The position numbers and the translations under genes are program-made. From the NCBI GenBank assembly GCA_020091685.1, contig CM034600.1, positions 6,337,837 to 6,401,836 of the forward strand: a DNA stretch of 64,000 bases, in the 5' to 3' direction. The notes under the pieces were generated by a model. That model saw only the letters and a program-made list of their open reading frames with translations, was not told where the DNA came from and ran no database searches. Below are positions 28,860-60,871 of this stretch, piece after piece. Each line of letters opens with the position of its first letter. Position 1 is the stretch's first letter. Source of the DNA: Lutjanus erythropterus (lineage: Eukaryota > Chordata > Actinopteri > Lutjaniformes > Lutjanidae).

Positions 28860-30680
28860 GTGTCAAATATATCAGACTATATTGTCATAACATGACAGAG
28901 GAGGAATAAAATGAATGAATGAATCAAGCAAAAAGACATAAAACAACAGTAGAGTGACGGAAGAAAAGTTACTGCTTGTACTCCCAAAAACAATACATGA
29001 ATGCTTGAGAAGAATCAAATTAATAATACAATGAAGCGATGGCTGGAGTCAAGATAAATAAACATATATGTATATCTTTATATTATATAAATATAGATGA
29101 AAAGGAACACCTAACACTGTGAATAAATTAGGGCCCAGAGTTCATGTAGGATGAGCTTCAGATACATCCATCCATTGGTAACTTTAGCTTTTCTTCATTT
29201 ACCTTTAAAGGTGCACTGCTACATTTACAGTCATGTCAGAAATTTCATAGGCTGTGGTAATCCCCTTTAACTTTTACTCAGTGGGGCTCACTAGTAGAGA
29301 TTTAGTTTTCACAAGTGGAAAATCAGTCAAAATGTTCATTTAAGATATCTGCAACAATTTTGACATGTTACAAAATTTAGATTCACATGTATAAATTTGC
29401 GATGAGTGAAAAACTGATTTACTGATCATCTTTAATTATAGATATCAGGAATTTCTTTTTCACTGCTAAGAATAATGATTACAGACATCTACAATTGAAT
29501 CTACATGTTGAAAAAGGATTGTGACTAGTGGAGAAAGCTGTAATTGCATGTCCAATATGTCATGTGACATATCAACAAACCTTTTGGATATGTTGACATA
29601 ATTAGCATATTCATTCACTTATGTAGGCTGAAGAGATCTACAAGGACATTTTGTTTAATGGAAATTCCTTTTTTGATATTTAAAATTAAACTCTGACAAG
29701 TTATAAAAGGGATATCTACAATATAACAGCTACTGCTTAAAATAGCTTTCACTTGTTGCAGTTGTATGTCAGATATTTGAAATGTAATTCAAGATATCAG
29801 AAATGACATTCGTTACAATTCCACACCATTGTTGATACCTACAGTTTCTATAGTGGATAGCGATAAATGTTGAAAGGACTTACCATATATAGGCAACTTT
29901 ACCGCTACTAATATTAACAGCCCATGGGGAAAAATATGCATCCCCCTCATTCGTTTTAATAAGATGACTGGATGTACCAATGCAGGATCACTGTGTAGAC
30001 TGGAGTATTTCCAGTGCTTACCTTGCAGTGGTAGAGATAAAGGATAAAATGACTGATGCCATAATAACTTTCCAGAGTTGTACAATCCCTCCTCTTAATA
30101 TAACAAAGCACTGTGCAGTGTTTTGGCATTGATAGGTTGTATTGTTAGTTGTGTTACTCTTCCTGGATTGTGGTTCATGGCCTCACGGGTGCCTGAAACA
30201 ACAAACCCGTGCCAGCATAACCCCTTGCATTTTTGGTCTGAACATCCAGTTACAGGATAAAGCTGGTGTAATTTTATATTTTCCTTATTGTCAACAAATT
30301 CCATGGGAAAAAAAATAGGTTGTCACTCAATACTTTATGACTTCCCTAACCTGTCTGTAGCTCTCAGTGCCAAGCCTGTTGGTTGGGTCACTTTTATGCA
30401 CTTTCAATTTTAAAACAAATCGCCACTTATTACTTTTGCAAACTTTACTTAAATGTGAATATAAAGTGCATTTGTTGGGGACTATTTTCAGCTCAGACGT
30501 TTGGTGTTTTGGTGAGTACTTACAGCATCAGCACACTGTATGTATGTACATAAAACCTAAAAAAAAATGTTCAGTCTGGTGAAAGTCAGTGCAACACTGT
30601 GGTTCAGCCACTGTTGGTATGTTACCATAGTTACAACTCATTTACTACAGACTATTAAAAATATCAGCATACCTTTTTGC
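28860..30680. repeat. Intergenic spacer with a degenerate GATATC repeat
   Basis: No gene recognised. Between about 29290 and 29830 the phrases AGATATC, GATATCTACAA, GACTAGTGGA and AATTGCAT recur at irregular 50-70 nt spacing, as in a decayed tandem repeat. The rest is AT-rich. Confidence 0.45.
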
Positions 30681-30684
30681 CTTT

Positions 30685-30835
30685 GACAGATCAGGTCACA
30701 ATGGGTGTAACAGGGACAAAGTCTACACAAGAAGGCAAAAGGTAAAAATGTAATATAGATAGGAGAGGAGTGGCAGGAAGGAATATTGCCTTTTGGAGTG
30801 CTATATAAGACCCTAGGACTCCCCTCTGTCATTCA
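30685..30835 (+). promoter_or_regulatory. Keratin promoter module A (gene 2)
   Basis: Order of elements shared by all modules in the cluster: GGGACAAAGTCTA, GGCAAAAGGTAAA, AGGAGAGGAGTGGCAGGAAG (Ets-like CAGGAAG), AATATTGCC, then TATATAA at 30802-30808. The leader runs CACTCTCAGCTGCCAAACCC...CCAGGACGCACTG up to the ATG at 30907. Confidence 0.8.
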
Positions 30836-30906
30836 CTCTCAGCTGCCAAACCCCTCTGCGCCAGGACGCACTGCTTCTTCCTCTGATCAGCGCGCTTCTT
30901 TCAGCA

Positions 30907-33900
30907 ATGGAGGCCCGGATTATGCGCCAGAGTTCCCATGGTGTTGGTTTTCACACAGGCATTCACAGACCTCACATGGAGAGGGGCTATGCCTTCAGCG
31001 TCAGTGGAGGGGCTGGCGGCCAAGGGACCAGGATCTCAACCGCCACCTACGGCACACGGGTTGGCAGCGGTTTCGGGGGTGGGTATGACTACCAATCCCA
31101 AGGATCAACCTCTGGAACCCTGGCCATCACTAACGAGAAGATGACCATGCAGCACCTGAATGACCGCCTGGCTAGCTACCTGGAGACGGTGAGGAAACTG
31201 GAGAAGGCCAACAGCGCGCTGGAGATCAAGATCATAGAGGCCATCGAGAAGAGAGGTCCCTTGGAAGGGAGGGACTACAGCAAGTACGAGGCCATCATTG
31301 CGGACTTGAGGGCCAAGGTGAGTCTATAAATTAATCAGTCTATCTTAATAATAATTGAACTTATTAAGTCTGGACCAGTGATTCCCAAACGGTGTGCGGA
31401 GGCTGTGCTGTGAGGCAAGTGTGTCTTGAGATTTTGTTATGAAAAAAGTTAGGAAAGAATTACTACATTAGTACTTTGTACTTTCTCATTTACCAGTATA
31501 AAGGCAAATTCTGTACCCTAAAAAATCCTTTAAAAATCTTTAATAAAAGTAAATCACAGTTTTTGCCATTTGCACAGTCGCCAGATGGTCGTGACACATC
31601 ATGGGCCCTGATTGGCTGATGCCTTTTTTCCCATGAACTCTGTCTCTGATCGGTTGCCTCTGTCAGTTTGGCTGCTTAAAGAGGCTATTTTGCATGGATA
31701 TGAACACAAGTGTGCCTTGAGATTTGGGCTTGTCCGTCGGTCTGCCTTTGGCAAAAAGCGGTCTGAAAACCACTGGTCAATTAGAGTTTAAGAAAAACAT
31801 CCACCAACAAATCCAGTCCAGTCTTTAGGGCAGCCCTTCATACTGGGGTGGTGACATTGTTTTCTTACTACTGTAAAGAATGGGAGGGGGGGAGTATGGT
31901 TTCAGGTAAGGCGAGTAAGGGACGTAGGCCATTCAAGAAACTACCTTGTATTTGCAAATACAAGGTTAAGTTACTATTATATAAACTGCAAAAAAGGTGT
32001 ATAAAGATTGCACAGTGATCAATCTGGATCTCTTTCAGTGTTCTGGTTTGACCGACACTGCAGTGTCTCTAAATAAAGAAAACACAGCATGAATGTCACT
32101 AAATGTGTCATGCATTTTCATGTTGGTGCACAAAATAGTTTTCCAAGTGCTGGAGTGCTGGATGAGGCAGCTATGCTATGCCAAACTGATGAAACATATC
32201 TCAAAAGACAATCCAGGATGAATCATTTTAACTTTATATTATCATGCATCCTGCACTCTGAAGTGTTCATGTACCTCTCTGACTGATTTTACAACATTTA
32301 TCACCCATAGACTCTTATCTTAATCTCCATGTCGAGCTATTACACACAATATCAAATAGATAACCTGCTTTGTTCTTTTATGACTTACAGCCTGTTATCA
32401 AGGCGTATCCTTTTACCTGCACAGTTTATCAAAGTGCAGTTTGCAGGCCATCAAAAGTGACTGTGGGAGAACACAAAACACTGTTTGTTTGTATTTCACA
32501 CAATGAAAATAACCAAAAATATTTCATTTCTTTTAGATATTGGACATGATCAAGGGCAATGCACATCTTGCTGTCGCTGTTGACAATGCACGTCTGGCTT
32601 CAGATGACTTCAGAGTCAAGTGAGTGTTCAGCTTTGTGTACAAAATGACACTATTTTTCTGTCCAGCATGAACATATCTGATATACAGAATGTTTTATCA
32701 GGATGGAGTACGAGTTGTCCATGCGTCAAACGGTGGAGGCTGATGTCGCCAGACTGAGGAAGCTTCTGGATGACACCAACGTTATTCGCATGCACCTGGA
32801 AAGTGATATTGAGTCTCTGAAGGAAGAGTTGATCAGCCTGAGGAAGAACCATGAGACGGTGAGGAACACTGGTTGGGAATTACTCGTAGAAGAATACTCC
32901 CTTTGGCCTAATTCAACTAAACAATGGGGTATTAATTCAAAGAGAAAAACCTAAGAATGTGCTCGCCATTATGGCCATCTGTATGTTCCTTAACCTCTTT
33001 GCACAGGATAACCCCACTCACCTTGTTCAGGAAATCACTCCCTGACTATTTCCCCCCCAACAGGATGTTGCTGAACTGCGTGCCCAGATCACCCAGGCTG
33101 GCGTCCATGTGGATGTTGATGCTCCTAAGGGACAGGACCTGGCCAGGATCATGGAGGAGATGAGGGCTCAATATGAGAAGATAGCACTGAAGAACCAGGA
33201 AGATGCCAAAGCTTGGGCTGAATCTCAGGTAATTCATCAATGCTTAGTCACATTATAAATTGACTTGCTGTGTTTGTTGAGCACCTTTTCTGTGTACTAC
33301 ATGTATTTTATCTTGTTTCCAGATCACAGAGGTGCAGGTCCAAGTGACTGAGAGCTCAACAGCTCTGAAGGAAGCCACGAGTGTGTTGACTGAAATCAGG
33401 AGGAGGTATCAGACACTGGACATTGACCTGCAGTCTGCACTGAGCCTGGTATGAACAACTCTATACAACTAAAAGTACTATATATCTACTTACCATCCAC
33501 TGAAAAATGAAATTCATGCACCATTCTGAAAAAGTTAGCAAAAACAAACAAACAAATGTGGTGAATATCACAAGAGTGGGGTGTTATATGAACACGGTAA
33601 ACACAACGCAATTGAATGCAGCATGTGACACTATAGTCAGGAGACAATTAGCTTAGTTTGGCTTGGTAAATGTATTACATGTTGTGTGTTTAATCTGTAC
33701 AAAAAACAGAGTTTTGAGGTTTGACAGGGTGTTATGTGTGAGATTCAAAAGCTCTGGTAGGCAGATTTTGTTTGCTGTTTCCCCTAATTTTGTGCTAAGC
33801 TATGCTAACCAGCTGCAAGCTGTAGCTTTATATTCATCATACAGACATGCCTGATATCAATTTTTTCATTTACTTCTCTGCAAGAAAGCTGTAATTCTGT

Positions 33901-34635
33901 TTTCTCTGCTGTATCAATCAACCATACAATCAAGCTTTTTCTTTACCTCTTGACAGAAAGCGTCCCTGGAGGCCAACCTGCACGACATTGAGGCGCGTTA
34001 CAACATGGAGGTGGAGAGGTACAACGCCATCATCCTGAGGCTGCAGGAGGAGCTCACTAACATCCGCAAAGACATCCAGCACAACTCAAGCGAGTATGAG
34101 AACCTGCTCAACATCAAGGTGAAACTGGAGGCTGAGATCATGGAATACAGGAGGCTGCTGGACGGCGGGGACCTCCGGTGAGTGAGAGGAGAGGAGGCAG
34201 AAAGTTTGGTTTAAACAATAATAAAACTGATGTTAAAAATGAAGTTGACAGCTCTGCAGTGTGAGCTTTGTTCATCTCAGGAAAGCTTATGGAAATTTGA
34301 TTCAAATTAGCTTCATGCAAACATGAAGCAACATTGATATGGAAAGTAAAAGTCAATTCATATATTAATTTTTCAACTGCTGACCATACTAGATACATTT
34401 AAGTCACAGAATAGGGACACTTATCATCTTATTCCACTGTATAAAGTAGGACTAAATTTAGTTTTACTCATAACAAACCAAATATTGATTTTACTCTTTT
34501 GTTCTTTTTTCCAGACTAGAGGATGCTGTTGATTCAAAGACAGTCGAAGTGGTGACAGTCACTCGGACTCTGGTTGGTGGAAAAGTGGTGTCAGAGAGCA
34601 AGGACATCAAATCCAGTGAGAACGTTGTTGATTAA
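30907..34635 (+). CDS. Keratin, type I (K18-like), second gene
   Basis: Complete type I keratin with K18-like exon structure. Exons: 30907-31317, 32537-32619, 32702-32858, 33064-33228, 33323-33448, 33957-34177, 34515-34635; all borders are GT/AG. Total 427 aa. Gly-rich head (about 1-75, with [12 protein letters not shown] and GGGYDYQSQ), helix start [13 protein letters not shown] at about 81-93, [11 protein letters not shown] in linker L12, and helix end [10 protein letters not shown] in place of the usual TYRRLLxGE. The tail keeps GGKVVSES. The start has G at -3 and +4 and lies 99 bp downstream of TATATAA. Intron 2 is only 82 nt. It presumably pairs with a type II keratin; that partner is not in this window. 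This is the only extra copy with a full tail, so it is the best candidate for a fully functional paralogue. Confidence 0.9.
31376..31778. mobile_element. hAT-like MITE in intron 1 of the second keratin gene
   Basis: The ends CCAGTGATTCCCAAAC and CTGAAAACCACTGG are near-inverted repeats. The interior has GTGTGTCTTGAGATTTTG and GTGTGCCTTGAGATTTGG. No coding capacity. A clear target duplication was not found. Confidence 0.7.
33640..33895. repeat. SINE-like repeat in intron 5 of the second keratin gene
   Basis: TTGCTGTTTCCCCTAATTTT, GCTAAGCTATGCTAACCAGC, and AGCTTTATATTCATCATACA. Same family as at 22.85 and 45.45 kb. Confidence 0.6.
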
Positions 34636-34839: not shown

Positions 34840-35200
34840 TTTAACATTTTAGGACATTTGTGTCTGTCAATATTAGATGAGAAGACTGATACCAGACTGA
34901 AACTACAGCCAGCAGCTATCATATCTTAACAAAAAGACTTGTGTTGCACTATTTCTTTGCCAAGACACTCTTGGAGTCTGCTGGTTTTTTACCTTTAATT
35001 AAATGCACAGTGTATAATTTCTACCACTAGGGGTATCTCAAATCAAATCCATAACAAAAGACGTACTCTTGTGACAAGTAATAGTGTTGGATCATGGGAG
35101 TTGGTGTCCTGCCCGTCTTCATCTATCTGACACAATTCCGGCAGAAATCATGGTCACGTTCAAGGTAATGTATTGAGGTTTTATTCACACTAAGTTTAGT
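34840..35200. repeat. Dispersed repeats between the second and third genes
   Basis: Two fragments: a TTTTAGGACATTTG...CTACAGCCAGCAGC piece (related to about 41.35 kb) and the GGATCATGGGAGTTGGTGTC / CAGAAATCATGGTCACG piece (related to about 12.35 kb). The second leads directly into the GGTAATGTATT start of the next promoter module. Confidence 0.55.
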
Positions 35201-35470
35201 CAGGCTCACTGTCCTCCTTTGTCACTCTCGGATGTGTATCCCATGTTTCTCCAGAGGTTATAGCACCATGCAACCACGCTGTCAATATGAAAATGTCGGC
35301 ATACCTTTTAAGCTTGACAGATTGGTTCACAGTGGCCATTACGGGACAAAGTCTAAGCAAGAAGGTAAATTGTAAACATAGATAAGAGAGGAGTGGCAGG
35401 AAGGAATATTGCCTTTCAGAGTGGTATAAGACCCTATAACTCCACTCCGTTCTCCACTCTCTGCTGCCAA
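35190..35470 (+). promoter_or_regulatory. Keratin promoter module B (gene 3)
   Basis: Same element order as module A: GACAGATTGGTTCACAGTGG, GGGACAAAGTCTAAGCAAG, AGGAGTGGCAGGAAGG, AATATTGCC. The TATA box is TATAAGA at 35425-35431; the TATA repeat is one unit shorter than in the other modules. Confidence 0.75.
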
Positions 35471-35517
35471 ACTCCTCTGTGCCAGGACCCTGATTGATCA
35501 GCACACTTTTTTAAGCA

Positions 35518-38500
35518 ATGCCGTTCAACAGTAAAAGCCAGACCTATACTGGTAATAGAGGCATGACTGCAGTCAACAGGTCTGCACATCATTCTGTCAG
35601 CGCAACTTCAGCACATATTCACAAACCTGAAGAAATGGAGAGGTTTTATGCATTTACTGTTGCTGGAGGGGCAGGCGGCCAAGGGACCAGGATCTCAACT
35701 GCCACCTCTGGCACACGGATTGGCAGTGGTTTCAGGGGTGGGTATAACTACCAATCCTCGGGGTCATCATCTGGAACCCTGGCCATCTCTAATGAGAAGA
35801 TAACCATGCAGCACCTGAACGACCGCCTGGCTAGCTACCTGGAGACGGTGAGGAAGCTGGAGAAGGCCAACAGCGCGCTGGAGATGAAGATCATAGAGGC
35901 CATCGAGAAGAGAGGCCCCATGGAGGGGAGGGACTACAGCAAGTATGAGGCCGTCATCACGGAGCTGAGGGCCAAGGTGAGGGCAAAAAATGTTGTTTAT
36001 GGCATATATTTTACAACATAATGACAAAACTGCAAAAATAAGTGTGCAAAGAAGATTGCAGAGTGATCAATCTGTCTTCATAAGAGTTATGGTTTTACTG
36101 CAAAGAAGTGGTCATACCGTAGCATGATTGCCACTAAATGTGTTACTCACTTACATGCTACTGCACAAAATATCTTTTTAATATCATGACAAACGGATCA
36201 AAACTATCAGTTAAATTGTAGCTTTTTTAAAGAATCCGTCATTGACCAAGATCTCAAGCCTTTACTTACCTTGTAAAAGTCACATAATGTTGGGGCAAAA
36301 GACATTCTGAATTAACTACTTTCACTTTTTACTCTTGTGCCTCTTGCTCTCAAAGTGTTCATTTACTTCTCTGACTGATTTCACAACATTTATTACCTGT
36401 AGACTCTTACTTTTCTATCCATGTTGGGCTACAGGAGACAATATCCAAAAGACAACCTGCTCACTGTTTTATGATTGTAGCATATTAGCAAAGGTGCGTC
36501 TTTTGACCTGAACAATTTATCAAAGTGAAAATTTCAGTTTGTAGTGTGTCACTAAACAGTCTGTATACCTCATAATGAAAATAACATAAACTTCTTCATT
36601 TCTTTCAGATACTGGACTCGATCAAGGACAACGCACATCTTGCAATTGCTCTTGACAATGCATGTCTGGCTTCAGATGACTTCAGAGCCAAGTGAGTGTT
36701 CAGCTTTGTACACAAAATGAAACAGACTTTATCTACCTTGAACATATCTGATATACAGAATGTTTTATCAGGATGGAGTATGAGTTCTCCATGCGTCGAA
36801 CGGTGGAGGCCGATGTCGCCAGACTGAGGAAGCTTCTGGATGACACCAACGTTACTCGCATGCACCTGGAGAGCGACGTTGAGTCTCTGAAGGAAGAGTT
36901 GATCAGCCTGAGGAAGAACCATGAGACGGTGAGGAACACTGGTTGGGAATTAATGTTCCACAGGAGGCTGCCTTCACATAACATCTATGTGAATACAGAT
37001 ATGTGAATATGGACATGAGCACAACTTAAAAAGAAAATTGACAACTGTAGTATGAGTCTGTCAGAGGTGGCAAAAGTACACACATTGTTTTCTTGAGTAG
37101 AAGTACAGATGTTTGTGTCAAAAAAAGACATTGGTAAAAGTAGAAGTACTGATTCAACTTCTTTATTTGAGTATTTTTTATTCAAGTTATGTCTTTTACA
37201 TTGTTTTTCCTTTTTTATGTCTTGTTACATCTTGTTACATTTTTCATGTTATGTCTTGTTATGTCATTTTCAACATTTTTGACTTGTTACATATTTGTGT
37301 TGTTTTCATCTTGTTACATCTTGTTATGTCTGTGAAGGTTCTCAGTCATCAAGGTCATTTTATTCGTAGAAAAACAACCTTTTCTATGAATATATCTTAT
37401 GTCTCATTAAATTGTTTCTGTCTTGTTGCATCTTTTACACCATTTTCTTATCTTTCACATGATTCCTATCTTGTTACCCCTTTTGTGATGTTTTCATTTT
37501 ATTTCTTGATATGTCATTTTCATCTTGTTGTATCTTTAAAATAGTCTTTATTGTTTTTGTCTTGTTACATTCTTTTCATCTTGTTACATCTGACTACATC
37601 CTTTATGCTGTTTCTGTCTTGTTTCGTCTCATTATGTCACATGTCTTTTGGGTTTGTCCTGCTCGTGTGTGGTATGCACTGAAGGATAAACTACAGAATT
37701 GTCCTTTTTATGTGTTACTGTCCCATCCATTTAGGTTGAAATCAGTCTTGATGTTGAGAAGGCTGCACACAATGATGCAAAATAAAAGAAACTGACAGTT
37801 CCCTTCAAATGTATTAAAGTTTTAAGTAAGAAGCCTGTTTTGAAAATGTAAGGTGTGGAACGTTTTTTGTGTAAAACTGTAGGGAGTAAAAGTTAAAAGT
37901 TGTCAAAAAAATAAATACTCAAGTACAGATACCTGAAAACCATTAAGTTTTCCCAAAGCTAACCAAGTAGTTTGGGAGCACAGACCTACCCAAGACTTTT
38001 AATTTGAAAGTGTGACTGGATGCTACATGTTTATAATTGCGAAACTGACTGCAGAATGATACCAACAGTGGATAATACATTACATTGAAAGTTTTGTGAC
38101 TGTTTCATAAACTGCTGTGAGACTGTGTTGCCCTTTGGCCTGAACCCACTGAATGATGGGATAGTAACTCAAAGAGAAAAGACTACACACCATTATGACA
38201 ATCTGTTTGTTCCTCAACCTCTTTGCACAGGATGACCCCTGTTACTTTGTTCCCGACTATTTCTGCCACAACAGGATGTTGCTGAACTGCGTGCCCAGAT
38301 CACGCAGGCTGGTGTCCATGTGGATGTTGATTCTCCTAAAGGACAGGACCTGACCAGGATCATGGAGGAGATGAGGGCTCAATATGAGAAGATAGCACTG
38401 AAGAACCAGGAGGAGCTCAAAGCATGGCATGAATCTCAGGTCTTAGTGCATATTCACACTATAAATTCACTAATCATGCTTGTTGAGCACTGTTTCTGTG

Positions 38501-41031
38501 TAATGTATGTATTTTTTCTTGACTCCAGATCACAGAGGTGCAGGTCCAAGTGACTGAGAGCTCAACAGCTCTGAAGGAAGCCACGACTGAGATGACTGAA
38601 ACCAAGAGGAGGTATCAGACACTGGACATTGACCTGCAGTCTGCACTGAGCCTGGTACGAACATTTGTGCTGGTTTCTGTCCCACTTTTGACCTGCAACC
38701 ACTCAACAAAAATATAAACATCATTCATGAGTTGAGATGAAAGATTTCAGACTTATTATATGAAAGCAAAAGTTTTATTTTTCGCAAATTTTGCTCACAA
38801 ATTTGTTAAAGTTCCCACGAAATGGCACGCAGCTAAAAGCAGTCCATGGATCTAGGGAGAGAGCGTTCTTAGTTGACTCACAGCTCACAATGAATGCAGC
38901 CAGGCTAAAACCAAACCAGCCTCCAGCCTCCGAGAGGGAATAGGCTACAATACCAAGATGGTTTTCTTGCTGGTTTTGGGGCTGACTCATGGCTGCTGGT
39001 AATTATTCTTAGTGTATTTACTTTAGCAACAAGTAAAGCTATCTTTCTATCAGCAAACTGTGTAAACAACCTTGGTACTTCCTGTCAGGCTGTCCTCATC
39101 CCAGTAGTGTTCTTGGAGGCTGCTGAGCATGATTGTGTTGCTCTGCTAACAGCTGAAAGTTGCATTTACCAGTTGATTCCACTGGGCACGGCACATCTTC
39201 ACCACAGTTTTTACCTGGCCTCGAAATGTCTGTAACCCCACTTGCAGTGGTTCAGCAGCATTTCAGCCCGCTTGATTATGTTGACGTGCTCAGATTTTGT
39301 TGATTTCGGTCCTCTTCCTTGCTCTTTCTGCTTCTACTATAAGCAGGCTATGTGGTTAAATAGTTTATTTTCTGTCCGTCTTTATGATCACAAGTCTGCA
39401 TGGGGGCTTTTAATTTGAAAACTGACTGGATGCTCTCTACTTTTTCTGTGTCTGACTTCCTGCCCACTCGATCTGCTCTGTGCTAATTCATGCGGCATCC
39501 ATCAAAAAAAGACTGATGCATGAAGACAACAAAATGTAAGCGCTGCTGGGTCTTTCTGTTGGTCACAATACAGGTGCTCTTTGGACACCTCAGGTATTTT
39601 GCACTTATTCTTAAGGTGAAGAGCTCATTGCATGGGTCAAACAGTCTTAATAAAAAAATCAAAAATACAAAATGACCAAGGCATATCGACCAACACAGGG
39701 CTGGTCAATACGTGTTTTGCATACAATTTCTTTTATTTTTTTTATTCTTTTTGTTGTTTTTGTTTGCCATGTAAAATAAAGGCATTTTAACTTTATACAA
39801 ACTTTACTGTGTGCCATGGTGTGTTTTTGAAGGAGCCTTGCAGTTTTGATTTTTAACTAAGACTGTTTGAAAATGCAATGAGCCCTTCACCTGAAGAAAA
39901 AGACTGATGCATATTTAAAGCAGAGGGAAGTGGAGAGCAGCCGCGGCGCAGCCATAACCCAACGCAGCTGTGCCTGGTGGAATTTAGCCATTAGTGACTT
40001 TAGCAACAATAGCTAAAGCTTTCTGTCCATCAGTAAACTAATTAAATTGCAGAGTTGAAGCTGACATCGGAGAACATCAAAATGGAAAACATAACTTTTT
40101 TTTTTTTAATATGATCCAGTTTCACCCAAGTTAGTGAATACATGTAAAAAGTTGTGCATTGTACAGTGAGGCTTGACCCCCAGAAACACTGCAGCTCCCT
40201 CCGCAAAATAACCAAGAATACCTACAAAGCAACAGATACTGGCATATAGGTGGCATATAGTACAATGTATATGTGATAAACTCTCAGTGTCTAGAAGCCA
40301 GCAAGGCTAACAGTTTAGCAAGGTAGCAGGTAATTTAATGCAGGAACTGCAAAGACCTAATGAAAAGACAAGAGCTGCTGCTGGCAATATCAAAAAATTC
40401 TGTTTCTCTACTGCATCCTTCAATCAAGCTTTTTCTTTACCTCTTGACAGAAAGCGGCCCTGGAAGCCACCCTACGTGACATCGAGGCGCGTTACAACAT
40501 GGAGGTGGAGAGGTACAACGCCATCATCCTGAGGCTGCAGGAGGAGCTCACTAACATCCGCAAAGACATCCAGCACAACTCAAGAGAGTATGAGAACCTG
40601 CTCAACATCAAGGTGAAACTGGAGGCTGAGATCATGGAATACAGGAGGCTGCTGGACGGCGGGGACCTCCGGTGAGCGAGAGGAGAGGAGGCAGAAAGTT
40701 TGGTTTAAACAATAATAAAACTGATGTTAAAAATGAAGTTGACATTTTTTGCTGAAAGCCAAACATTCACTGCTCTACAGTGTGAGCAGACAGGTATTGA
40801 GGCTTTGTTCATCTCAGGGAAGTTTTCACAGATTTGATTCAGATTATTTTCATTTGAACACATATTGATAAGGAAAGTAAAAGTAAATTCATTCCCTACA
40901 TTATCTGGCATCCACTGCTGTATTTCAGCATGTGGATGCCAGATAACTTTAAGACACAAAATATGTGAACCTAGTATTGATTTTTGTCTTTCGCTCTTTT
41001 TTCCAGACTAGAGGATGCTCTTGATTCTTAG
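35518..41031 (+). CDS. Keratin, type I (K18-like), third gene, tail truncated by TAG
   Basis: Exons: 35518-35976, 36609-36691, 36772-36928, 38275-38439, 38529-38654, 40451-40671, 41007-41031. Total 411 aa. The head (about 1-91) has a different N-terminus from gene 2 ([15 protein letters not shown]...), then the shared [20 protein letters not shown] and FRGGYNYQS. Helix start [13 protein letters not shown] at about 97-109, [11 protein letters not shown] in L12, helix end [10 protein letters not shown]. Odd points: the conserved Arg of NARLASDDF is Cys ([10 protein letters not shown], exon 2); the exon 4 donor is GTCTTA, which is weak; an in-frame TAG at 41029-41031 ends the protein at LEDALDS, while the former tail remains readable to 41118. 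Introns 3 and 5 are swollen by insertions. All other splice sites are sound, so a near full-length rod protein is expected. Confidence 0.8.
37061..37975 (+). mobile_element. TIR element with TCTTGTTACAT repeats inserted in intron 3 of gene 3
   Basis: The left end (CAGAGGTGGCAAAAGTACAC, TTGAGTAGAAGTACAGAT) is echoed inverted at the right end (ATACTCAAGTACAGATACCT). The interior (37180-37640) is a degenerate array of CTTGTTACAT / TTATGTCTTG. Gene 2's intron 3 lacks it, and flanking intron sequence (about 38130-38270) aligns with gene 2 at 32900-33060, which shows an insertion. The 143-codon frame inside is repeat-derived. Confidence 0.75.
38770..40280 (-). mobile_element. Repeat insertion in intron 5 of gene 3 (inverse of the 3.75-5.5 kb family)
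   Basis: The stretch at 39010-39125 (TTTAGCAACAAGTAAAGCTA, TTTCTATCAGCAAACTG, TTGGAGGCTGCTGAGCA) is the reverse complement of about 4340-4440. CCAGTTTCACCCAAG at about 40118 inverts a phrase at about 4130 and about 57300. The other keratin genes have 508- and 648-nt introns here against 1.8 kb in gene 3. Exact ends are not resolved. Confidence 0.6.
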
Positions 41032-41334: not shown

Positions 41335-41740
41335 GAAAGGAATAATTCCAGTCCTTTTGGGACACATGCGTATTTGCTCCTTTGTGGAGAGTTAGGTAAG
41401 AAGATGCTACATATAAAGCTACAGCCAGCAGTTAGCTTAGCATTGAGGCTGGAAAAGGGGAAACAGCTAAGCTGGCTCTGAGCAAAGGCCCACTGGCACC
41501 TCCAGAGCTCACTAATTGATATGCTGTATCTCATTGTGTATTCATACAAAAGCCAAAGTGTAAAAACGTCAAGTTGTATTTTATTGTCTTTTATTCAAGT
41601 ACTGTACTATTTTACTTTCCATTATATACTACTTTATACTTCTACACTAAATTATAATTGCTCTTTTGTGCTTTTTACTCTACTTGTATTGACATAAAAT
41701 ATAATCAAATAATAATAATTAATAATGATTATTATTATAT
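41335..41740. repeat. SINE-like repeat and CAAGTACTGTAC-type repeat downstream of gene 3
   Basis: The first part has CTACAGCCAGCAGTTAGC, TTAGCATTGAGGCTGG and GAAACAGCTAAGCTGGC. The second has TTCAAGTACTGTAC and ACTACTTTATACTTCTACAC, a phrase common in teleost repeats. Confidence 0.6.
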
Positions 41741-41879
41741 CAGTAAGACTTTATTGATCCCCTACATGTGCGTCAAAAGAATAACAAAAGATGTTTTTTT
41801 ACATTGTGAAGTAGAGTGGGAGTTTTGTTCATTAACAATGAAAGTCTCTGACATTTGCAGAAATCATGTTCACAGACAA

Positions 41880-42361
41880 GGTAATGTATTCAAGTTTACA
41901 TTTTGTTACATTCACCGACGTTCTTTGTAATTTTCTGATGTGTACCGCGTTTGCCCAGAAGTTATAGAAACACTATCGATTTCAGCATACCCTTCAACAG
42001 ACTGGTTCATAGTGGGCATTAAGGGAACAAAGTCTAAGCAGGAAGGCTAAAGGTAAAAAATATAATATTGATAGGAGAGGAGTGGCAGGAAGAAATATTA
42101 CCCTTTAGAGTGATATATAAGACACTATAGGACTCTGTCCTCCACTCTTAGCTGCCAAATCCCTCCGTGTCAGGACGTATTCCTTCTTTCTCTGGTCATC
42201 AGCACACTTCTGTTAAGAGTCACAGTTCTATGCAGTTCACAGTTTGTCTCTGTGGTTCTTTAGTTTTCTGATCGACACACAGTCCAACAGCTTAAGACAT
42301 GGATAAGGTCCACTCTGTCTCTGCCTTTGGAGGGGCAGGTGGCTATGGGATAAGGAGGCGG
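41880..42361 (+). promoter_or_regulatory. Keratin promoter module C with truncated exon 1
   Basis: Full promoter (GGGAACAAAGTCTAAGCAGG, AGGAGAGGAGTGGCAGGAAG, TATATAA at 42114-42120) and a leader like gene 2. A short exon-1 remnant follows: ATG at 42299 opens a 21-codon frame, MDKVHSVSAFGGAGGYGIRR plus R, ending at TAA 42362-42364. This keeps only a fragment of the Gly-rich head. Module D starts at the GGTAATGTATT junction. Confidence 0.75.
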
Positions 42362-42877
42362 TAATGTATTAATGTTTTATTTATGTTATGTTTAGTCACA
42401 TTCGTTGACTTCCTTTGTCACTCTCTGATGTATCCTTGGAAGTTATAGCAAAAGGCAACTGCACGATCAAAATGAAAATGTCAGCACACTGTTTTGCCTT
42501 TGATAGCTTGGTTCACTTGGGGAATAATGGGTACAAAGTCTAAGCATGAAGGCAAAAGCTAGATATGTAATAGGAGAAGAGCGGCTGGAAGGAATATTGC
42601 CTTTCAGAGTGATATATAAGATCGTAAGACTCTACTCCATCCTCAACTCTCAGCTGCTAAACCCCTCTCTGCCAGGACGCACTGCCTCTGCCTTCGATCA
42701 ATCAGCACACTTCGTTTCGCAATGGAGGTCCAGATTAATATTGCAGTTCTACATGATTCACAAATAACCACCACAGTTCTTCAGCCTTCTATTTGATTTG
42801 CAGTCCCACAGCTGAAGACAAGGTCCACTCTGTCTCTTCCACTGGAGGGGCAGGCGGCTATGGGATAAGGAGGCGGT
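42362..42877 (+). promoter_or_regulatory. Keratin promoter module D with truncated exon 1
   Basis: Second full module: TATATAA at 42613-42619. ATGGAGGTCCAGATTA at 42722 matches the gene 2 start context but stops after 24 codons (TGA 42794-42796). A second head fragment lies at about 42804-42876 (GGAGGGGCAGGCGGCTATGG, then GATAAGGAGGCG). This is the nearest intact TATA box upstream of gene 4, and the likeliest driver of gene 4 if that gene is expressed. Confidence 0.75.
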
Positions 42878-43060
42878 AATGTATTAAAGTTTCTCTGATA
42901 TATCCCATATTTCCCCAGAAGTTACAGCAACATTCAACCACTCTATCAGTACACCCTTTTCCCTTTAATAGATTGGTTCATAAATAGCATTATGGGGACA
43001 AAGTCTAACCACTGCAAGTCTTCAGTTTTCTATTTGATATGCAGTCCCACAGCTGAACTG
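42878..43060 (+). promoter_or_regulatory. Keratin promoter module E, partial (TATA deleted)
   Basis: Starts with the same TAATGTATTAAAGTTT junction and keeps AGATTGGTTCATAAATAGCA and GGGGACAAAGTCTAA. It then jumps to the TTCAGTTTTCTATTTGAT segment just before exon 1 of gene 4. The Ets-like box, TATA box and leader are missing. Confidence 0.7.
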
Positions 43061-46000
43061 ATGGAAAGGGGCTACGCTTTCACTGTCCCTGAAGTGGAGG
43101 GCAGCTATGGGTCCAAGATCTCGACCACCTCCTACGGCACACGGGTTGGCAGCAGTTTCGGGGGTGGGTATGACTACCAATCCCAAGGATCAACCTGTGG
43201 AGCCCTGGCCATCACTAACGAGAAGATGACCATGCAGCACCTGAACGACCGCCTGGCTAGCTACCTGGAGACGGTGAGGAAACTGGAGAAGGCCAACAGC
43301 GCGCTGGAGATCAAGATCATAGAGGCCATCGAGAAAAGAGGCCCCATGGAGGGGAGGGACTACAGCAAATACGAGGCAATCATTGCAGAGCTGAGGGCCA
43401 AGGTGAGTCTATGAATCTATCAGTCAGTCTTAATGGTTACTGAGGTGTCTTCTGTTTAGTCAACTGAGGGCAAAAGATGTGTTTATAGCATATGTTTTAC
43501 ACAGCAAAAGTCATTCCAGGATGAGTCACTTTCACTTTTTTTATCAAGCCTCCTGCACTCCAAAGTGTTCACATATTTCTCTGACCGATTTCATAACATT
43601 TATCACCTGGACTCTTACCTTTATCTCCATGTTGAGCTATGGGAGAAAGTATCTAAAAGATAACCTGCTTTGTGGTTTTATGATTATAGCATGTTATCAA
43701 AGGGTGAACAATTTATCAACTTTAAAATTACATTATGCAGTCCATCAAAAACGATGGAGAATTAAAAACACTAAGTGCAACTGTGTATATAGTCTGTATT
43801 CCTCACAGTGAAACTCGTATTAACTATTTCATTTCTTTCAGATACTGGACACAATCAAGGGCAATGCACATCTTGCTGACGCTGCTGACAGTGCACGTCT
43901 GGCTTCAGATGACTTCAGAGTAAAGTGAGTGCTCATTTTTGTACACAAAATGAAACAGGCTCTCCATCCAGCATGAACATATCTGATATACAGAATATTT
44001 CATCAGGGTGGAGTACGAGTTGTCCATGCGTCAGGTGGTGGAGGCTGATGTGGCGAGCTTGAAGAAGCATCTGGATGACACCAACTTTACTAGCCTGCAT
44101 CTGGAGAACGACATTGAGTCTCTGAACGAAGAGATGATCAGCCTGAGGAAGAACCATGAGACGGTGAGGAACAATGGTCAGGACTTGTCTGGTTTTTAGA
44201 GGCATACAACTTTGCAAATCTACAATATTTTTTGTGGCAGTAAAACAGGACTTTTAGAGTAATGAGGATGAACATAGTATAAAGAGTGAGAAAGCAATAA
44301 AGTCCATATACATTATTGCCTCCTTGACCATGGCATGAGAATGAGGGTCGTTAATATATTAGTTTGAAAGTTGTGCTGACGTCATGAAAAAAATGTCCAG
44401 GTGCATGATTTTAATTTAGCATTTTCATGACAATTCATTGACTGCCATGTGACTATGTAAACAGGACTGAATACTTCTGTGCACAAGATAAGCACACTAA
44501 CCTTGTTCAGGAAATCACTCCGTGACTTCTTCCCCTGCAACAGGATGTTGCTGAATTGCATGCCCAGATTATGCAGGCTGGTGTCCATGTGGACGTTGAC
44601 TCTCCTAAAGGACAGGACCTGACCAGGATCATAGAGGAGATAAGGGCTCAATATGAGAAGATAGCACTGAAGAACCAGGAAGATGCCAAAGCTTGGGCTG
44701 AATCTCAGGTAATTTGTCATCGTTTGCATTGTCACATTTTCAGTTGACTTGCTGTGTTTGTTGAGTACTTTTTCTATGTACTACATGTATTTTATCTTGA
44801 CTCCAGATCACAGAGGTGCAGGTCCAAGTGACTGAGAGCTCAACAGCTCTGAAGGAAGCCACGACTGAGATGACTGAAGCCAAGAGAACGCATCAGACAC
44901 TGGACATTGACCTGCAGTCTGCACTGAGCCTGGTACGAACATTTGTCCTTCAAATTATACATTCATACTAGGCGATCGCAAAATATTATGCTCTTTGGGT
45001 TCCATTTGTTGCATAGGTTGCATAGGTTAACAGTGTGGACAATCTGCTTATTTTCTTGCAAGAAAGACTGAATCACTCTAATTTATATCTGTGTGAAACA
45101 TTGGTTAAGATATAGGAAGTTGTGTACACCATATGCTTGACTTTGAAGCTTTCAAGTGGTGAGAAAACTGCCGTGAGGCAACTGCAACATGGATGCTAAA
45201 ACTGTCACCGTCTAAGAGCTACAAAGGCTAACAATTTATCAAGCTAGCAAGTGGTTATTTTCCTGGGAATATCAACACTTTCCTCAGACATATTATAGAA
45301 TTATGCAGACAAGGTCTATACGACCAAATTTAGAATACATTCACTTACCATTTTTTTTAGCTAATTCGTACAAAAAGCAAAGTTTAAGAATGACAGGTTG
45401 TGGTTTTGCAGGTTATGCTTTTGGCCTGATTTTGCTGTTTCCCCCAGTTTCTTGTCTTTACATGCTAAGCTAAGCTAACTAGCTGTAGCTTCATATTTGT
45501 CAGGAAAAAAAACATCTCATTCTTGGCAACAAAGAGAAAAACTGTCATCAGAATCAAGCTTTTTCTTCACCTGTTGACAGAAAGCGTCCCTGGAGGCCAA
45601 CCTGCACGACATCGAGGCGCGTTACAACATGGAGGTGGAGAGGTACAACGCCATCATCCTGAAGCTGCAGGAGGAGCTCACTAACATCCGCAAAGACATC
45701 CAGCACAACACAAGAGAGTATGAGAACCTGCTCAACATCAAGGTGAAACTGGAGGCTGAGATCATGGAATACAGGAGGCTGCTGGACGGCGGGGACCTCC
45801 GGTGAGCGAGAGGAGAGGAGGCAGAAAGTTTGGTTTAAACAATAATAAAACTGATGTTAAAAAATTAAGTTGACTGTTTTTTGCTGAAAGCCAAACATTC
45901 ACTGCTCTACAGTGTGAGCGGACTGGTATTAAGGCTTTGTTCATCTCAGGGAAGTTTTCACAAAATTGATTTTCAAATTATATTGATAAGGAAAGTTAAT

Positions 46001-46132
46001 TCATTCCTTACATTTCAGCTGCTGTATTTCAGCATGTGGATACCAGATAACTTTAAGACACAAAGTATGTGAACCTAGTATTGATTTTACTCTTGGTTTT
46101 TGTCCAGACTACAGGATGCTCTTGATTCTTAG
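43061..46132 (+). CDS. Keratin, type I (K18-like), fourth gene; short head, truncated tail, promoter damaged
   Basis: Exons: 43061-43402, 43842-43924, 44007-44163, 44544-44708, 44807-44932, 45581-45801, 46108-46132; all borders are GT/AG and the frame is continuous. Total 372 aa from the ATG that matches the internal MERGYAF of gene 2. The frame is also open upstream to an ATG at 42992, but that part is former promoter sequence. Head about 52 aa, helix start [14 protein letters not shown]12 [11 protein letters not shown], helix end [10 protein letters not shown]. It ends at LQDALDS by a TAG at the same codon as gene 3. Exon 3 differs at conserved places ([25 protein letters not shown]). The TATA-proximal promoter is deleted; intact TATA boxes lie 450 and 950 bp upstream. 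It may be expressed from those or be a young pseudogene. Confidence 0.65.
45330..45515. repeat. SINE-like repeat in intron 5 of gene 4
   Basis: TTGCTGTTTCCCCCAGTTTC, ATGCTAAGCTAAGCTAACTA, and GTAGCTTCATATTTGTCAGG. Same family as at 22.85 and 33.8 kb. Confidence 0.65.
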
Positions 46133-46218
46133 ACAGTCCAGACCAAAGTGGTGACAGTCAGTCAGACTCTGGTGGATGGAAAAGTGGTGTCAGAGAGCAA
46201 GGACATCAAATCTAGTTT
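46133..46218 (+). pseudogene. Untranslated former tail of gene 4
   Basis: The ancestral frame is open past the TAG and encodes [15 protein letters not shown]. The old stop codon has also been lost (TAA became TTT), so the frame would run on toward the poly(A) signal. This is further evidence that the tail is no longer maintained. Confidence 0.65.
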
Positions 46219-46231
46219 TAAGAAGTTCTTG

Positions 46232-46291
46232 AATAAAAGTGGAAGGAAAAAACAAAAAACTGTAACAAACTGTAACGGTAACAAAAATAAA
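46232..46291 (+). terminator. Poly(A) signals of gene 4
   Basis: AATAAA at 46232-46237 and 46286-46291, in the same places as in genes 2 and 3. Confidence 0.65.
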
Positions 46292-46454
46292 AAATGAACA
46301 AAAATTGTACCATCATGTCTGCGACTGTTTTTTTTTTTTTTTCAAAACAGACATTACATTACATCAAGACTGTCAGTATGCTACATATAAAGCTACAACC
46401 AGCAATTAGTTTAGCTTAGCATTGAGGCTTGAAACATATACATATAAAAATCTC

Positions 46455-46822
46455 CCTGATGTTTCTCAGGCAGAAATCATGGTCACAGACAAGGTAATGT
46501 ATTAAAGTCAAGCATATGATTGGTTTAGAGATTGGCTTACAGTGGGAAATATGGGGACAAAGTCTAAGCAAAAAGGCTAAAGGTAAAAATGTAATATAGA
46601 TAGAAGAGGAGTGGCAGGAAGGAATACTGTAAGCTGCCAAATCCCTCTGTGTCAGGACGTATTGCTTCTTTCTCTGATCGACCAGCACACTTCTTTTAAG
46701 AGTCACAGGTCTCTGCAGTTCTTCAGTTTTCTAATCGACACACGGTCCCACAGCTGAAGACATGGATAAGGTCCATGCTGTGACTGTCACTGGAGTGTCA
46801 TGCGGCTGTGGGACAGGATGGA
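46455..46822 (+). pseudogene. Keratin promoter module F with truncated exon 1 (TATA deleted)
   Basis: Counterpart of module C in the next block: GGGGACAAAGTCTAAGCAAA and GAGGAGTGGCAGGAAGGAAT, then a deletion that joins the box directly to AGCTGCCAAATCCC, removing the TATA box. The exon-1 remnant has ATG at 46762 and a 21-codon frame starting MDKVHAVTVTG, ending at TAA 46825-46827. Confidence 0.7.
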
Positions 46823-47321
46823 GGTAATGCATTAAAGTTTTGTTCAGGTTATGTTTAGCCATGTTTGCTTCTTTCACTCATCACTCTCTCGTGAAGTTAT
46901 AGCAAAAAAAATGTCAGCATGTCGTATTGCCTTTGACAGATCGGTTCACTGGGGGGAATTATGGGGACAAAGTCTAAGCAAGAAAGCAAAAGGTAAATAT
47001 TTAATATAGCTAGGGGAAGAGTGGCAGGAAGGAATATTGCTTTTCAGAGTGATATATAAGACCATAGGGCTCTAGATCCTTCACTCTCAGCTGCTAAACC
47101 CCTCTGTGCCAGGACGCACTGCTTCTTCCTCTGATCAACCAGCACACCTATTTTAGCAATTGAGGTCCGGATGAATATTGCAGTTCTATGCGGTTCCCAA
47201 AATAAACATCACAGTTCATCAGTTTTCTATTTGATTTGCAGTCCCTCAGCTGAACACCTGGAGAGGAACCTCGCAGTCACTGTCACCGGAGGGCCTGGCG
47301 GTTTATGGATAGGGAGGCGGT
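46823..47321 (+). pseudogene. Keratin promoter module G with broken exon 1
   Basis: Counterpart of module D. Promoter elements are intact with TATATAA at 47053-47059, but the start codon is ATTG instead of ATGG (about 47160). A head fragment lies at about 47241-47321 (GGAGGGCCTGGCGG), ending in the AGGGAGGCGGTAATG junction. Confidence 0.7.
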
Positions 47322-47452
47322 AATGTATTAGTTACTCTGTCGTTTCTCTTTTTCTTTTGATAGACTGGTTCACAGTTGGTATCATGGGGACAATGTCTAA
47401 ACACCACAGGTATTCAATTTTCTTTTTCATATGCAGTCTCATAGCTGGAGCG
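47322..47452 (+). pseudogene. Keratin promoter module H, partial
   Basis: Counterpart of module E with the same internal deletion: AGACTGGTTCACAGTTGG and GGGGACAATGTCTAA are followed directly by TTCAATTTTCTTTTTCATAT. The shared deletion shows the block of three modules was duplicated after the deletion arose. Confidence 0.65.
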
Positions 47453-48297
47453 ATAGAGAGATTCTACGCCTTCACTGGAGGGGCAGGCAGCTGTGGGCCC
47501 CAGATCTCAACCGCCACCCACGACACACGGGTTGGCAGTGGCTTTGGGACTGAAACTATAAAAACTGATGGTAAAAATAAAGTTGATATATATATATACT
47601 GAAAGAGCCCTTCAGTGTGAGCTGATATCAGAGCTTTGTTCATTCCAGGGAAGTGTTTGCAAATTTAATTCAAATCAGGCAAACATGAAGCACCTTTGAT
47701 ATTAAAAGTAAAAGTCAGTTTATGTCCCTTACATTTCAACTGCTGAATTTCAGTGTGTGAATTTTTGATAACTTTAAGACATAAAATACATGTGATGCCA
47801 AAATAGTGAGTGAAGTAATGGTCAATTATTCAAGTGTATAAACTAGAACTAAAATTAGTTTTACTCATAACAAACAACCTTCATTTTAACATCTCAACAT
47901 CAAGGTGAAACTGGAGGCCGAGACTAAGGAGTACAGGAGGCAACTGGACAGAAGAGACTTTTGGTGAGTGACAGGAGAGGGGATTTGTCAATTCATAACT
48001 TAATTTTCAACTGCCAACCATCCTAGACAACTTTAAAAACACAAAATATATTTGCTGCTAAAATAGTGACACTAATGATCTTATTCCACTGTTTAAACTA
48101 GGACTAAATTTAGTTTTACTCATAACAAAGAGCAACCAAATATTGATTTTACTCTTTTGTTCTTTTTTCCAGACTAGAGGATGCTGTTGTTTCCAGACCA
48201 AAGTGGTGACAGTTACTCAGCGGTGGTGACAATGGTGGATGGAAAAGTGTTGTCAGAGAGCGAGGACGGCAAATCCAGTGAAAAGGTTGTTGATTAG
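47453..48297 (+). pseudogene. Broken fifth type I keratin copy
   Basis: Mosaic remnant. Exon 1 fragment 47453-about 47549: the start codon is now ATA; ERFYAFTGGAG and RVGSGFG are recognisable. It breaks off into intron-6 sequence (AAAACTGATGGTAAAAATAA), so exons 2-5 are lost. A 3' piece of exon 6 follows (47893-47963, [18 protein letters not shown]) with its GTGAGT donor, then a second intron-6 copy, then exon 7 (48173-48297), which has a deletion that shifts the frame into a TGA. The far-downstream VVD-stop matches gene 2. The copy carries two intron-6 homologues in a row, a sign of unequal recombination. No functional product is possible. Confidence 0.85.
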
Positions 48298-48307
48298 AAA
48301 CTGGAAA

Positions 48308-48313
48308 AATAAA
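48308..48313 (+). terminator. Relict poly(A) signal of the fifth copy
   Basis: AATAAA 11 nt after the relict stop. Downstream sequence to about 48460 still aligns with the 3' flanks of genes 2 and 3, which marks the end of the duplicated unit. Confidence 0.55.
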
Positions 48314-48487
48314 ACTTCCTAACAAAAATACAATGAGCATAAACTGCACAATCATGCCTGTGACTATTTTTTAACTTTGTGTTAAAGAGTCATTACATTA
48401 GATTACATCACAGTCACCCATTCTGCAGTCGTGCATCTCCTGATTATAAGATACTATTACAACTTATTCATTTTTGGTTTAGTATTG

Positions 48488-55339: not shown

Positions 55340-55880
55340 CATAGACAGGCTATTCACACCATCCACACAGGCTATTTACGCCCCGGGTGCAAAAAGCATT
55401 GCTGGCTACTGACACCAGGGTGCTTGTGTCTCCAATGGGGTACAAACAGCCACATTGTCTATTCACACCTGCTGGATTGGCTATTTATACTCCAGGTACA
55501 AATAGCAATGGTGGCTGAGGACACCTGGGTGCTTGTGTCTGCGCTGCTAGCCTATACAGACTCGGTTGTAAATAGCCACATTGGCAATTCACACCTGCTA
55601 TATTGGCTATTTACAACGTAGGTGCAAATAGCATTGTTGACTACAATATACACCCAGGTGTAAAGAGCTAGCCTATACAGACTCGGTTGTAAATTTGGCT
55701 CATTGGCTCTTCACACCTGCCACAGTGGCTATTTACAGCCTGGGTGCAAATAGCGTTGTTGACTAAGGACACCTGGGTGCTTGTGTCTGCAATGCTACCC
55801 TACATACACTTGTAAATACCCACATTGGCTATTGCACCCCAGGTGGCTACTGGTAGCTGGGTGCTAATAGCATCTGCCTA
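55340..55880 (+). repeat. Imperfect minisatellite (GGCTATTTACA unit)
   Basis: About four degenerate copies of a roughly 140-nt unit: CACATTGGCTATTCACACCT, GGCTATTTACA, GGTGCAAATAGCATTGTTG, ACACCTGGGTGCTTGTGTCT, then CTAGCCTATACAGACTCGGT. Confidence 0.75.
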
Positions 55881-56370
55881 AACAATCCACAACTTTTAAA
55901 AGATTTGTACAAAGTTATATTTTTTGGTGGTTTGAGCACCACAGGACTGGTGCCATCTAGTTCCATTACATTGGAGAGAAGGCATAAACTTCTTTGGCCA
56001 ATATCTCCAAAACTCTGCAACTCACACCAAAATAAATAGCACTACAGGCCAGAGGAAAGTATTTTTGAGTTTGTGGTGGACCTGTCCCGTTAAATACAAA
56101 GTATTTCACTTTCAACAAAACAATGAATCAGCAAACTGCTACAATGCAAGGTGTAAATTCAGCCATATGCAGTTTTTAGCAGCACTCAGTGGCAAGAGGG
56201 AACCATAAACTTTAACTAAACCATAAACTCCTGAAAGACCACAGACCCAGCTCCACCCTTACGTTTCTCCCCAACCTCCCTCCGTCCACGAGATCCAGGG
56301 TGGCCCATAGTTTTGTGGAGTTTGATTGACAGAATGTACCATCCTGCTTTCTCACACATTCCAGACTGTT
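55730..56370 (+). repeat. Duplicated segment, copy 1
   Basis: Matches 60256-60871. The last 315 bp (56056-56370) align with 60557-60871 without gaps and with only a handful of mismatches. Confidence 0.8.
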
Positions 56371-60255: not shown

Positions 60256-60871
60256 AGCCAGTAAAGCCCGTGTACAAATAGCACTGTTAGCTAAGGACAC
60301 CTGGGTGCTTGTGTCTGCCCTGCTAGCCTATATACACTTGTAAATACCCACGTTGGCTATTGCACCCCATGTGTAAAAAGCATTGTTGGCTACTGGTTCC
60401 TGGGTGCTAATAGCATTTGCCTTAACAAGTCCATAATAGTGTGTACAAAACTGAAAAGAAAAAGGATTTGTACAAAGTTATATTTTTTGCTGGTTTGAGC
60501 ACCACAGGACTGGTGCCATCTAGTTCCATTACATTGGAGAGAAGGCAATATCTCCAAAAGTATTTTTGAGTTTGTGGTGGACCTGTCCCTTTAAATACAA
60601 AGTATGTCACTTTCAACAAAACAATGAATCAGCAAACTGCTACAATGCAAGGTGTAAATTCAGCCATATGCAGTTTTTAGCAGCACTCAGTGGCAAGAGG
60701 GAACCATAAACTTTAACTAAACCATAAACTCCTGAAAGACCACAGACCCAGCTCCACCCTTACGTTTCTCCCCAACCTCCCTCCATCCACGAGATCCAGG
60801 GTGGCCCATAGTTTTGTGGAGTTTGATTGACAGAATGTACCATCCTGCCTTCTCACACATTCCAAACTGTT
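60256..60871 (+). repeat. Duplicated segment, copy 2
   Basis: Counterpart of 55730-56370 with a roughly 70-bp internal deletion near 60545-60556. It begins immediately after the CCATCCATCC repeat. Confidence 0.8.

Follow-up and report, generated by a model that had tools for sequence, protein, structure and literature searches.

The window analysed here, a 64-kb stretch of the Lutjanus erythropterus genome (contig C10, positions 6337837-6401836; 937.6 Mb on 444 contigs were searched), contains what looks like a fish type I keratin gene cluster, in which a segment comprising the promoter and the beginning of exon 1 has been multiplied. Eight copies of this promoter module, designated A to H in order along the window, precede genes 2, 3 and 4 and a fifth, incomplete copy. 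Judging from the sequence, the array quite likely arose by a partial tandem duplication at a dispersed repeat, which was followed by unequal crossover and decay, with module D as the likeliest driver of gene 4.

When up to two mismatches were allowed, GACAAAGTCTAAGCA was located at eight sites in the window, all on the + strand (30715, 35345, 42026, 42532, 42997, 46556, 46966 and 47389), and at none on the - strand, so that the eight occurrences of a motif set described in the sequence-only reading all exist. Consecutive sites within C-E and within F-H are 506, 465, 410 and 423 nucleotides (nt) apart. The same reading had described one ordered set; the order holds wherever the motifs exist, but the set is incomplete. 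AGGAGTGGCAGGAAGG (again with up to two mismatches) was present in five of the eight modules (A, B, C, F and G), exact AATATTGCC in three (A, B and D) and exact TATATAA in four (A, C, D and G), with B carrying the variant GTATAAGA. A TATA box is retained in A, B (as the variant), C, D and G, and is absent from E, F and H. E and H have a deletion in common, running from GTCTA to ACCAC or AACAC and removing both the TATA box and the leader, and the TATA segment of F is also deleted; half of the extra promoter copies are thus predicted to be broken. The promoter was rejected as a candidate dispersed element, since a 241-base query from module D matched only this locus in the searched genome (six candidates and seven matches, all in the window). 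Tandem Repeats Finder, run over 30-49 kb, reported only one short array (37187-37249) and did not detect the module array, presumably because its units are too diverged.

Self-comparison of the window, a check suggested in the sequence-only reading, produced a parallel diagonal between C-E and F-H (41999-43152 against 46529-47538; 1169 columns, 70% identity, E=5e-175). A tree of all eight modules, built from columns 175-620 of their alignment under the Hasegawa-Kishino-Yano model with gamma-distributed rates (HKY+G) and 200 nonparametric bootstrap replicates, paired C with F, D with G and E with H at support values of 100, 89 and 95, respectively (ultrafast values 100, 88 and 94). C and F lack the same stretch of head sequence, and D and G have the head start GAGGTCC in common. 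Over the columns used for the tree, identity between mates was 82.7% of 313 positions for C-F, 82.0% of 394 for D-G and 75.3% of 170 for E-H. The diagonal and the tree pairs bear out the arrangement originally proposed, with C-E in tandem before gene 4 and F-H in the same order before the fifth copy; the tree, the shared deletions and the junctions likewise uphold a tripling of promoter plus partial exon 1, after which the block was copied once more. Direct repeats with common junctions and order-preserving relationships were found, as partial tandem duplication by unequal exchange predicts, and a repeat element, which is helpful to that process and not obligatory, stands at the breakpoint.

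This element was recognized when the module block was searched against the genome: many other contigs were matched (at least 45 matches, with 40 of 672 candidates scored), nearly all of them to 42354-42459 and a few to 41857-41897 or 41934-41971. With one dispersed copy as query, at least 40 matches were obtained (40 of 4108 candidates scored) on many contigs, at 76-81% identity excluding its own place, and 16 fetched copies had common stretches of ~260-450 nt. The repeat was located upstream of B, C and F (Table 1); the sequence upstream of A gave no match with the 16 copies. In D, E and G only the 3' part of the repeat is present, from about GGTAATG onward, fused to pieces of the exon-1 head. 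The match of copies elsewhere in the genome begins at 42354 in D and at 46816 in G, whereas in B and C it reaches farther upstream. Because of this difference in where the likeness begins, the module junction is read as an exon-1 head fragment fused to the interior of the repeat, and not as a bare recombination point. The sequence-only reading had placed a junction at GGTAATGTATT in every step. Seven sites of this motif (up to one mismatch, + strand) were found, and at four of them (42360, 42875, 46823 and 47319) it does join a head fragment to the following promoter, but the other three (35164, 41880 and 46493) lie within a longer stretch of the dispersed repeat.

The modules had been proposed to multiply independently of the gene bodies, which holds for C-D-E but not for F-H, where flanking gene sequence (gene 3 at its 3' end, gene 4 in its 5' part) seems, from segment-wise similarity, to have been carried along. 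In intron 6, identity was 91.1% of 304 positions between genes 3 and 4, 87.6% of 185 between gene 2 and the fifth copy, and 60.6% of 132 between gene 4 and the fifth copy. At exon 1, gene 4 is closer to gene 2 (133/150) than to gene 3 (117/150), and at its 3' end it is closer to gene 3 (114/124) than to gene 2 (69/87). Exon 7 plus the 3' untranslated region (3'UTR) of genes 3 and 4 are 88% identical, and the 3' flank matches at 81.6% of 87 positions. Beyond the 3' ends, positions 41404-41455 (behind gene 3) and 46378-46434 (behind gene 4) are 86% identical; the likeness of the two genes therefore extends from their 3' ends toward C and F. Gene 4 accordingly has the look of a chimera, and the fifth copy, in which a search for the complete set of rod exons returned no more than part of the head, a portion of exon 6 and exon 7, seems to be a rod-less pseudogene. 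Exon 6, 96-98% identical among genes 2, 3 and 4 and with its last 71 bases identical in all three, is likely a gene conversion tract.

The history that we favour would begin with a dispersed repeat that lay immediately before the promoter shared by copies B to H, where the alignments place it. A tandem duplication would have fused the broken exon-1 head to the repeat interior at GGTAATG, giving units of ~410-510 nt that comprised part of the repeat, promoter, leader and head fragment; further unequal exchange within the array would then have led to three units, the junctions of which are visible and the order inferred. Next, the unit closest to the gene, from which E and H descend, would have lost its core promoter and leader, as seen in the indel that E and H share. 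An unequal crossover would then have copied a segment that began in the 3' end of gene 3, took in C-D-E and ended in the 5' part of the gene-4 ancestor. Segment-wise similarity suggests that gene 4 would have combined its own 5' part with a gene-3-type 3' end, and that the old 3' end would have stayed with the fifth copy, whose rod was lost. Later decay, for example the loss of the TATA box from F, would have completed the picture. A crossover of this extent would explain the intron 6 and downstream-flank patterns and the shift in similarity along gene 4. At present, A is the most likely promoter of gene 2 and B that of gene 3; F, G and H, like the head fragments, are probably relics.

Several observations weigh against this history. 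The deeper nodes that join the module pairs are weak (58 and 77), which leaves the order of the first tripling unsettled. The 3' ends of genes 3 and 4 (91% in intron 6, 88% in exon 7 plus 3'UTR) are more alike than the module mates (75-83%), so that one event at one time would fit only with subsequent gene conversion or a higher rate of change in the upstream part. Exon 7 plus 3'UTR of the fifth copy is equally near gene 3 (81.8%) and gene 2 (81.9%), and the likeness of its 3' end to gene 2 consequently rests on intron 6. Gene 4 is also mosaic internally, with 96.8% identity to gene 3 in exon 5, 94.5% to gene 2 in the rod part of exon 1, and about 86% to both in exon 3. Finally, mates are more alike in the core, columns 300-400 (131/147), than in other sections (520/651; one-sided p=0.005), where the columns were chosen after inspection of the profile and the repeat part of C-F was left out as unreliably aligned; this excess could mean that some extra promoters have been kept.

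Compared with genes 2 and 3, gene 4 is open over 365 aligned codons with no length change, and its seven exons have splice sites in place. Its pairwise ratio of nonsynonymous to synonymous substitution rates (dN/dS) was 0.45 (95% limits 0.28-0.76) against gene 2 and 0.42 (0.29-0.64) against gene 3. Unique nonsynonymous and synonymous changes numbered 31:15 in gene 4, 11:11 in gene 2 and 25:22 in gene 3; the first is close to the share of 0.76 assumed for neutral change (p=0.17), whereas the other two depart from that share. Gene 4 looks as though it has been kept open yet relaxed, because the limits of dN/dS lie below 1 while the unique changes approach the neutral share. Between 42613 and the start of gene 4 there is no exact TATATAA, and the closest core promoter still intact is therefore that of D, ~450 nt before ATG 43061; by this placement, D is most likely the promoter of gene 4, with C as a possible substitute. 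A leader assumed to start at ~42638 would contain four short frames (24, 4, 2 and 2 codons, starting at 42722, 42753, 42860 and 42879) before ATG 42992. This ATG lies within the old promoter motif, in frame with gene 4, and the frame that it opens runs through GGGGACAAAGTCTAA into the keratin head; one further short frame (5 codons) stands between it and ATG 43061. We consider it rather improbable that D took over gene 4 after the gene's own core promoter had been lost, acting across a spacer derived from the repeat while C provided a second start, and that the old motif GGGGACAAAGTCTAA is now translated.

Gene 4 may instead be an unexpressed, promoterless copy and all of C-H debris, an unlikely outcome that could follow from the same history and whose odds overlap with those of the reading preferred here. 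The lack of a core promoter in E, the four short frames that a transcript from D would meet before 42992, and the 31:15 changes of gene 4 beside those of genes 2 and 3 are all consistent with debris. The open exons, intact splice sites and unchanged length argue otherwise, as do the upper limits of dN/dS (0.76 and 0.64); in addition, within the head, which is coding in E, columns kept between A and B were better kept between E and H than the remaining ones (60/72 against 20/33, p=0.012).

A working multi-promoter of gene 4, in which C and D start transcripts, G starts short ones and output is raised or tuned, is quite unlikely. C, D and G do retain a TATA box, leader and motifs, and the greater likeness of D-G and C-F in the core section, selected post hoc as noted above, would suit such a function. 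Were the sites constrained in A and B also under constraint in the extra promoters, D-G or C-F should show better conservation in the columns that A and B have kept, but this was not seen (152/180 against 29/36, p=0.36, and 120/144 against 23/27, p=0.69, respectively); the promoter part of E-H gave 37/47 against 7/13 (p=0.078). Together, the two tests yield no more than weak, conflicting signs of constraint on the extra promoters. Polarised changes in columns 180-440 numbered 21 in D and 14 in G (4 unclear), and 16 in C and 10 in F (5 unclear), so that D shows no fewer changes than G, a module with only a pseudogene downstream. The loss of the core promoter from E and H and of the TATA box from F, and the near-neutral changes of gene 4, also speak against a multi-promoter. 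The sequence-only reading had suggested that the array could supply alternative promoters, decoy binding sites or short transcripts; three of the eight modules (E, F and H) are without a core promoter.

The control sample comprised 20 stretches, each of 4.8 kb and upstream of an exon matching the start of the Filament profile, that were hand-picked from 147 profile matches. Direct repeat pairs of at least 60 nt were absent from 17 of the 20; the exceptions had one short pair each (L056 and L057) or a minisatellite of ~84 nt and one longer pair (L042), none of them at the exon. L038 and L039, two stretches on the same contig with other keratin matches, contained no module match at E 0.01. The same scan within the window returned four pairs away from exon 1 for gene 1, none for gene 2, and for gene 3 only the match to gene 2 exon 1. 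Since a repeated first-exon module occurs in none of the 20 control regions, the array appears, on this sample, to be local and not a habit of the intermediate-filament family; that it is no general feature of such upstream regions also fits a multi-promoter.

It is very doubtful that the modules serve as alternative first exons, spliced into gene 4 from the donor GTAATG to an acceptor at TTTGATATGCAG or TTTAATAG. A donor-like GTAATG is present at every junction, and pyrimidine-rich stretches ending in AG lie downstream. GTAATG, however, belongs to the dispersed repeat: GAGGTAATG was found in two of the five copies inspected (L013 and L018) and variants of it in the other three, and no donor was found beyond this inherited sequence. 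The TTTGATATGCAG stretch descends from coding sequence, because it lies inside a reading frame common to D, E, G and H, and joining the D donor to the TTTAATAG acceptor produced, when read by eye, a frameshift and a stop. On present evidence, namely the repeat-derived GTAATG and the shared reading frame, splicing of the units as first exons was rejected. Repetition of one module by misassembly, which the sequence-only reading had named as grounds for abandoning its proposal, is scarcely credible and was rejected even though the region is repetitive, since the modules differ by 17-38% over columns 175-620, carry private indels and include no near-identical pair (the best are 82-83% alike).

The window exons match the Pfam Filament family in a profile search. 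Against PDB, the best keratin matches of the gene 4 protein were the type I K14 (E 2.9e-21) and K10 (E 4.2e-21), ahead of the type II K5 (E 1.5e-8), and full-length vimentin was its top match overall; by its rod, gene 4 is classed as a type I keratin. Genes 3 and 4 have an early TAG in exon 7 in common (41007-41031 and 46108-46132), which removes most of the tail present in gene 2. Exon 6 with its flanking intron (33927-34226, 40421-40720 and 45551-45850) is 97% alike in genes 2, 3 and 4. In the fifth copy, the stretch around the exon 6 remnant is doubled (47767-47874 and 48026-48129, 81% identity), and an open frame (47384-47602) runs in module H from the old promoter motif through the head fragment, though the gene behind it is without a rod. 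Outside the keratin block, an internally repeated element (55348-56370) has a second copy (60262-60871) at 81% identity, and diverged local direct repeats occur at 4179-5222, 8448-8887 and 16509-16890. The minisatellite of control region L042 (2900-3278, or 1524-1902 in a reverse-strand reading; ~84-nt period) lies upstream of another intermediate-filament exon.

Table 1. Predicted genes, promoter modules and repeat stretches of the keratin block, in window positions
Feature	Position	Strand	Description
Gene 2, type I keratin	30907..34635	+	seven open exons, full tail
Gene 3, type I keratin	35518..41031	+	seven open exons, early stop in exon 7
Gene 4, type I keratin	42992..46132	+	seven open exons; ATG 42992 or 43061; early exon 7 stop
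Fifth copy, putative pseudogene	47447..48395	+	head part, part of exon 6, exon 7
Module A	30657..30920	+	promoter with TATA, leader, start of gene 2
Module B	35290..35520	+	promoter with TATA variant GTATAAGA, leader
Module C	41991..42358	+	promoter with TATA (42114), leader, head fragment
Module D	42354..42873	+	repeat 3' part 42354-42459, promoter with TATA (42613), leader, head fragment
Module E	42867..43165	+	repeat 3' part; upstream motif fused to head by deletion; runs into gene 4 exon 1
Module F	46524..46820	+	mate of C, TATA segment deleted
Module G	46816..47318	+	mate of D, TATA retained (47053)
Module H	47312..47552	+	mate of E, same promoter deletion; ~11 repeat bases remain
Dispersed repeat upstream of module B	34999..35274	+	interrupted match
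Dispersed repeat upstream of module C	41775..41971	+	alignment with repeat copies
Dispersed repeat fragment upstream of module F	46444..46508	+	alignment with repeat copies

In the UGT1A and protocadherin clusters, tandem copies of promoter plus first exon stand before shared exons, to which each first exon is spliced. The keratin units differ in that they end in broken head fragments without a supported donor. The motif GGAAGG presumably resembles an ETS site. TERT is switched on in cancer by tandem duplications in its promoter that include an ETS motif (PMC9481613); these are somatic and lie within the core promoter, whereas the units described here are ~500 nt long and separated by head fragments. 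The chicken BG cluster, as presented in the available part of PMC4046983, contains hybrid genes whose 5' end determines cell and tissue expression, and is like this cluster in having genes on the same strand with unequal crossing-over or deletion switching their 5' and 3' ends; whole genes are involved there, whereas in the keratin cluster a promoter with part of exon 1 has also been multiplied on its own. Incomplete tandem duplicates with turnover of transcription starts appear in a survey of human duplicate genes (PMC2687787), and a promoter array is not among the cases described in its available portion. The stickleback MYH3C locus (PMC12776057, a preprint) is likewise a fish cluster in which tandem duplication carried both coding and regulatory sequence; its copy number varies between populations and expression and reporter data exist, whereas the keratin mates are ~82% alike and known from sequence alone. 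Titles and the beginnings of abstracts in the literature gave no promoter array in a fish keratin cluster, although coverage of subscription journals is limited and the array is not thereby shown to be unpublished. Known processes would account for the case, namely partial tandem duplication with a dispersed repeat at its breakpoint, an unequal crossover that switched gene ends, and later decay.

The locus offers a readable record of how regulatory starts in a tandem family can multiply separately from the coding bodies, the break falling in a dispersed repeat, and provides a natural test of whether a gene that has lost its core promoter can survive on a duplicate one. If the extra promoters are idle, they would caution against counting promoter-like copies as promoters; if they work, they would be a small example of regulatory change by partial duplication.

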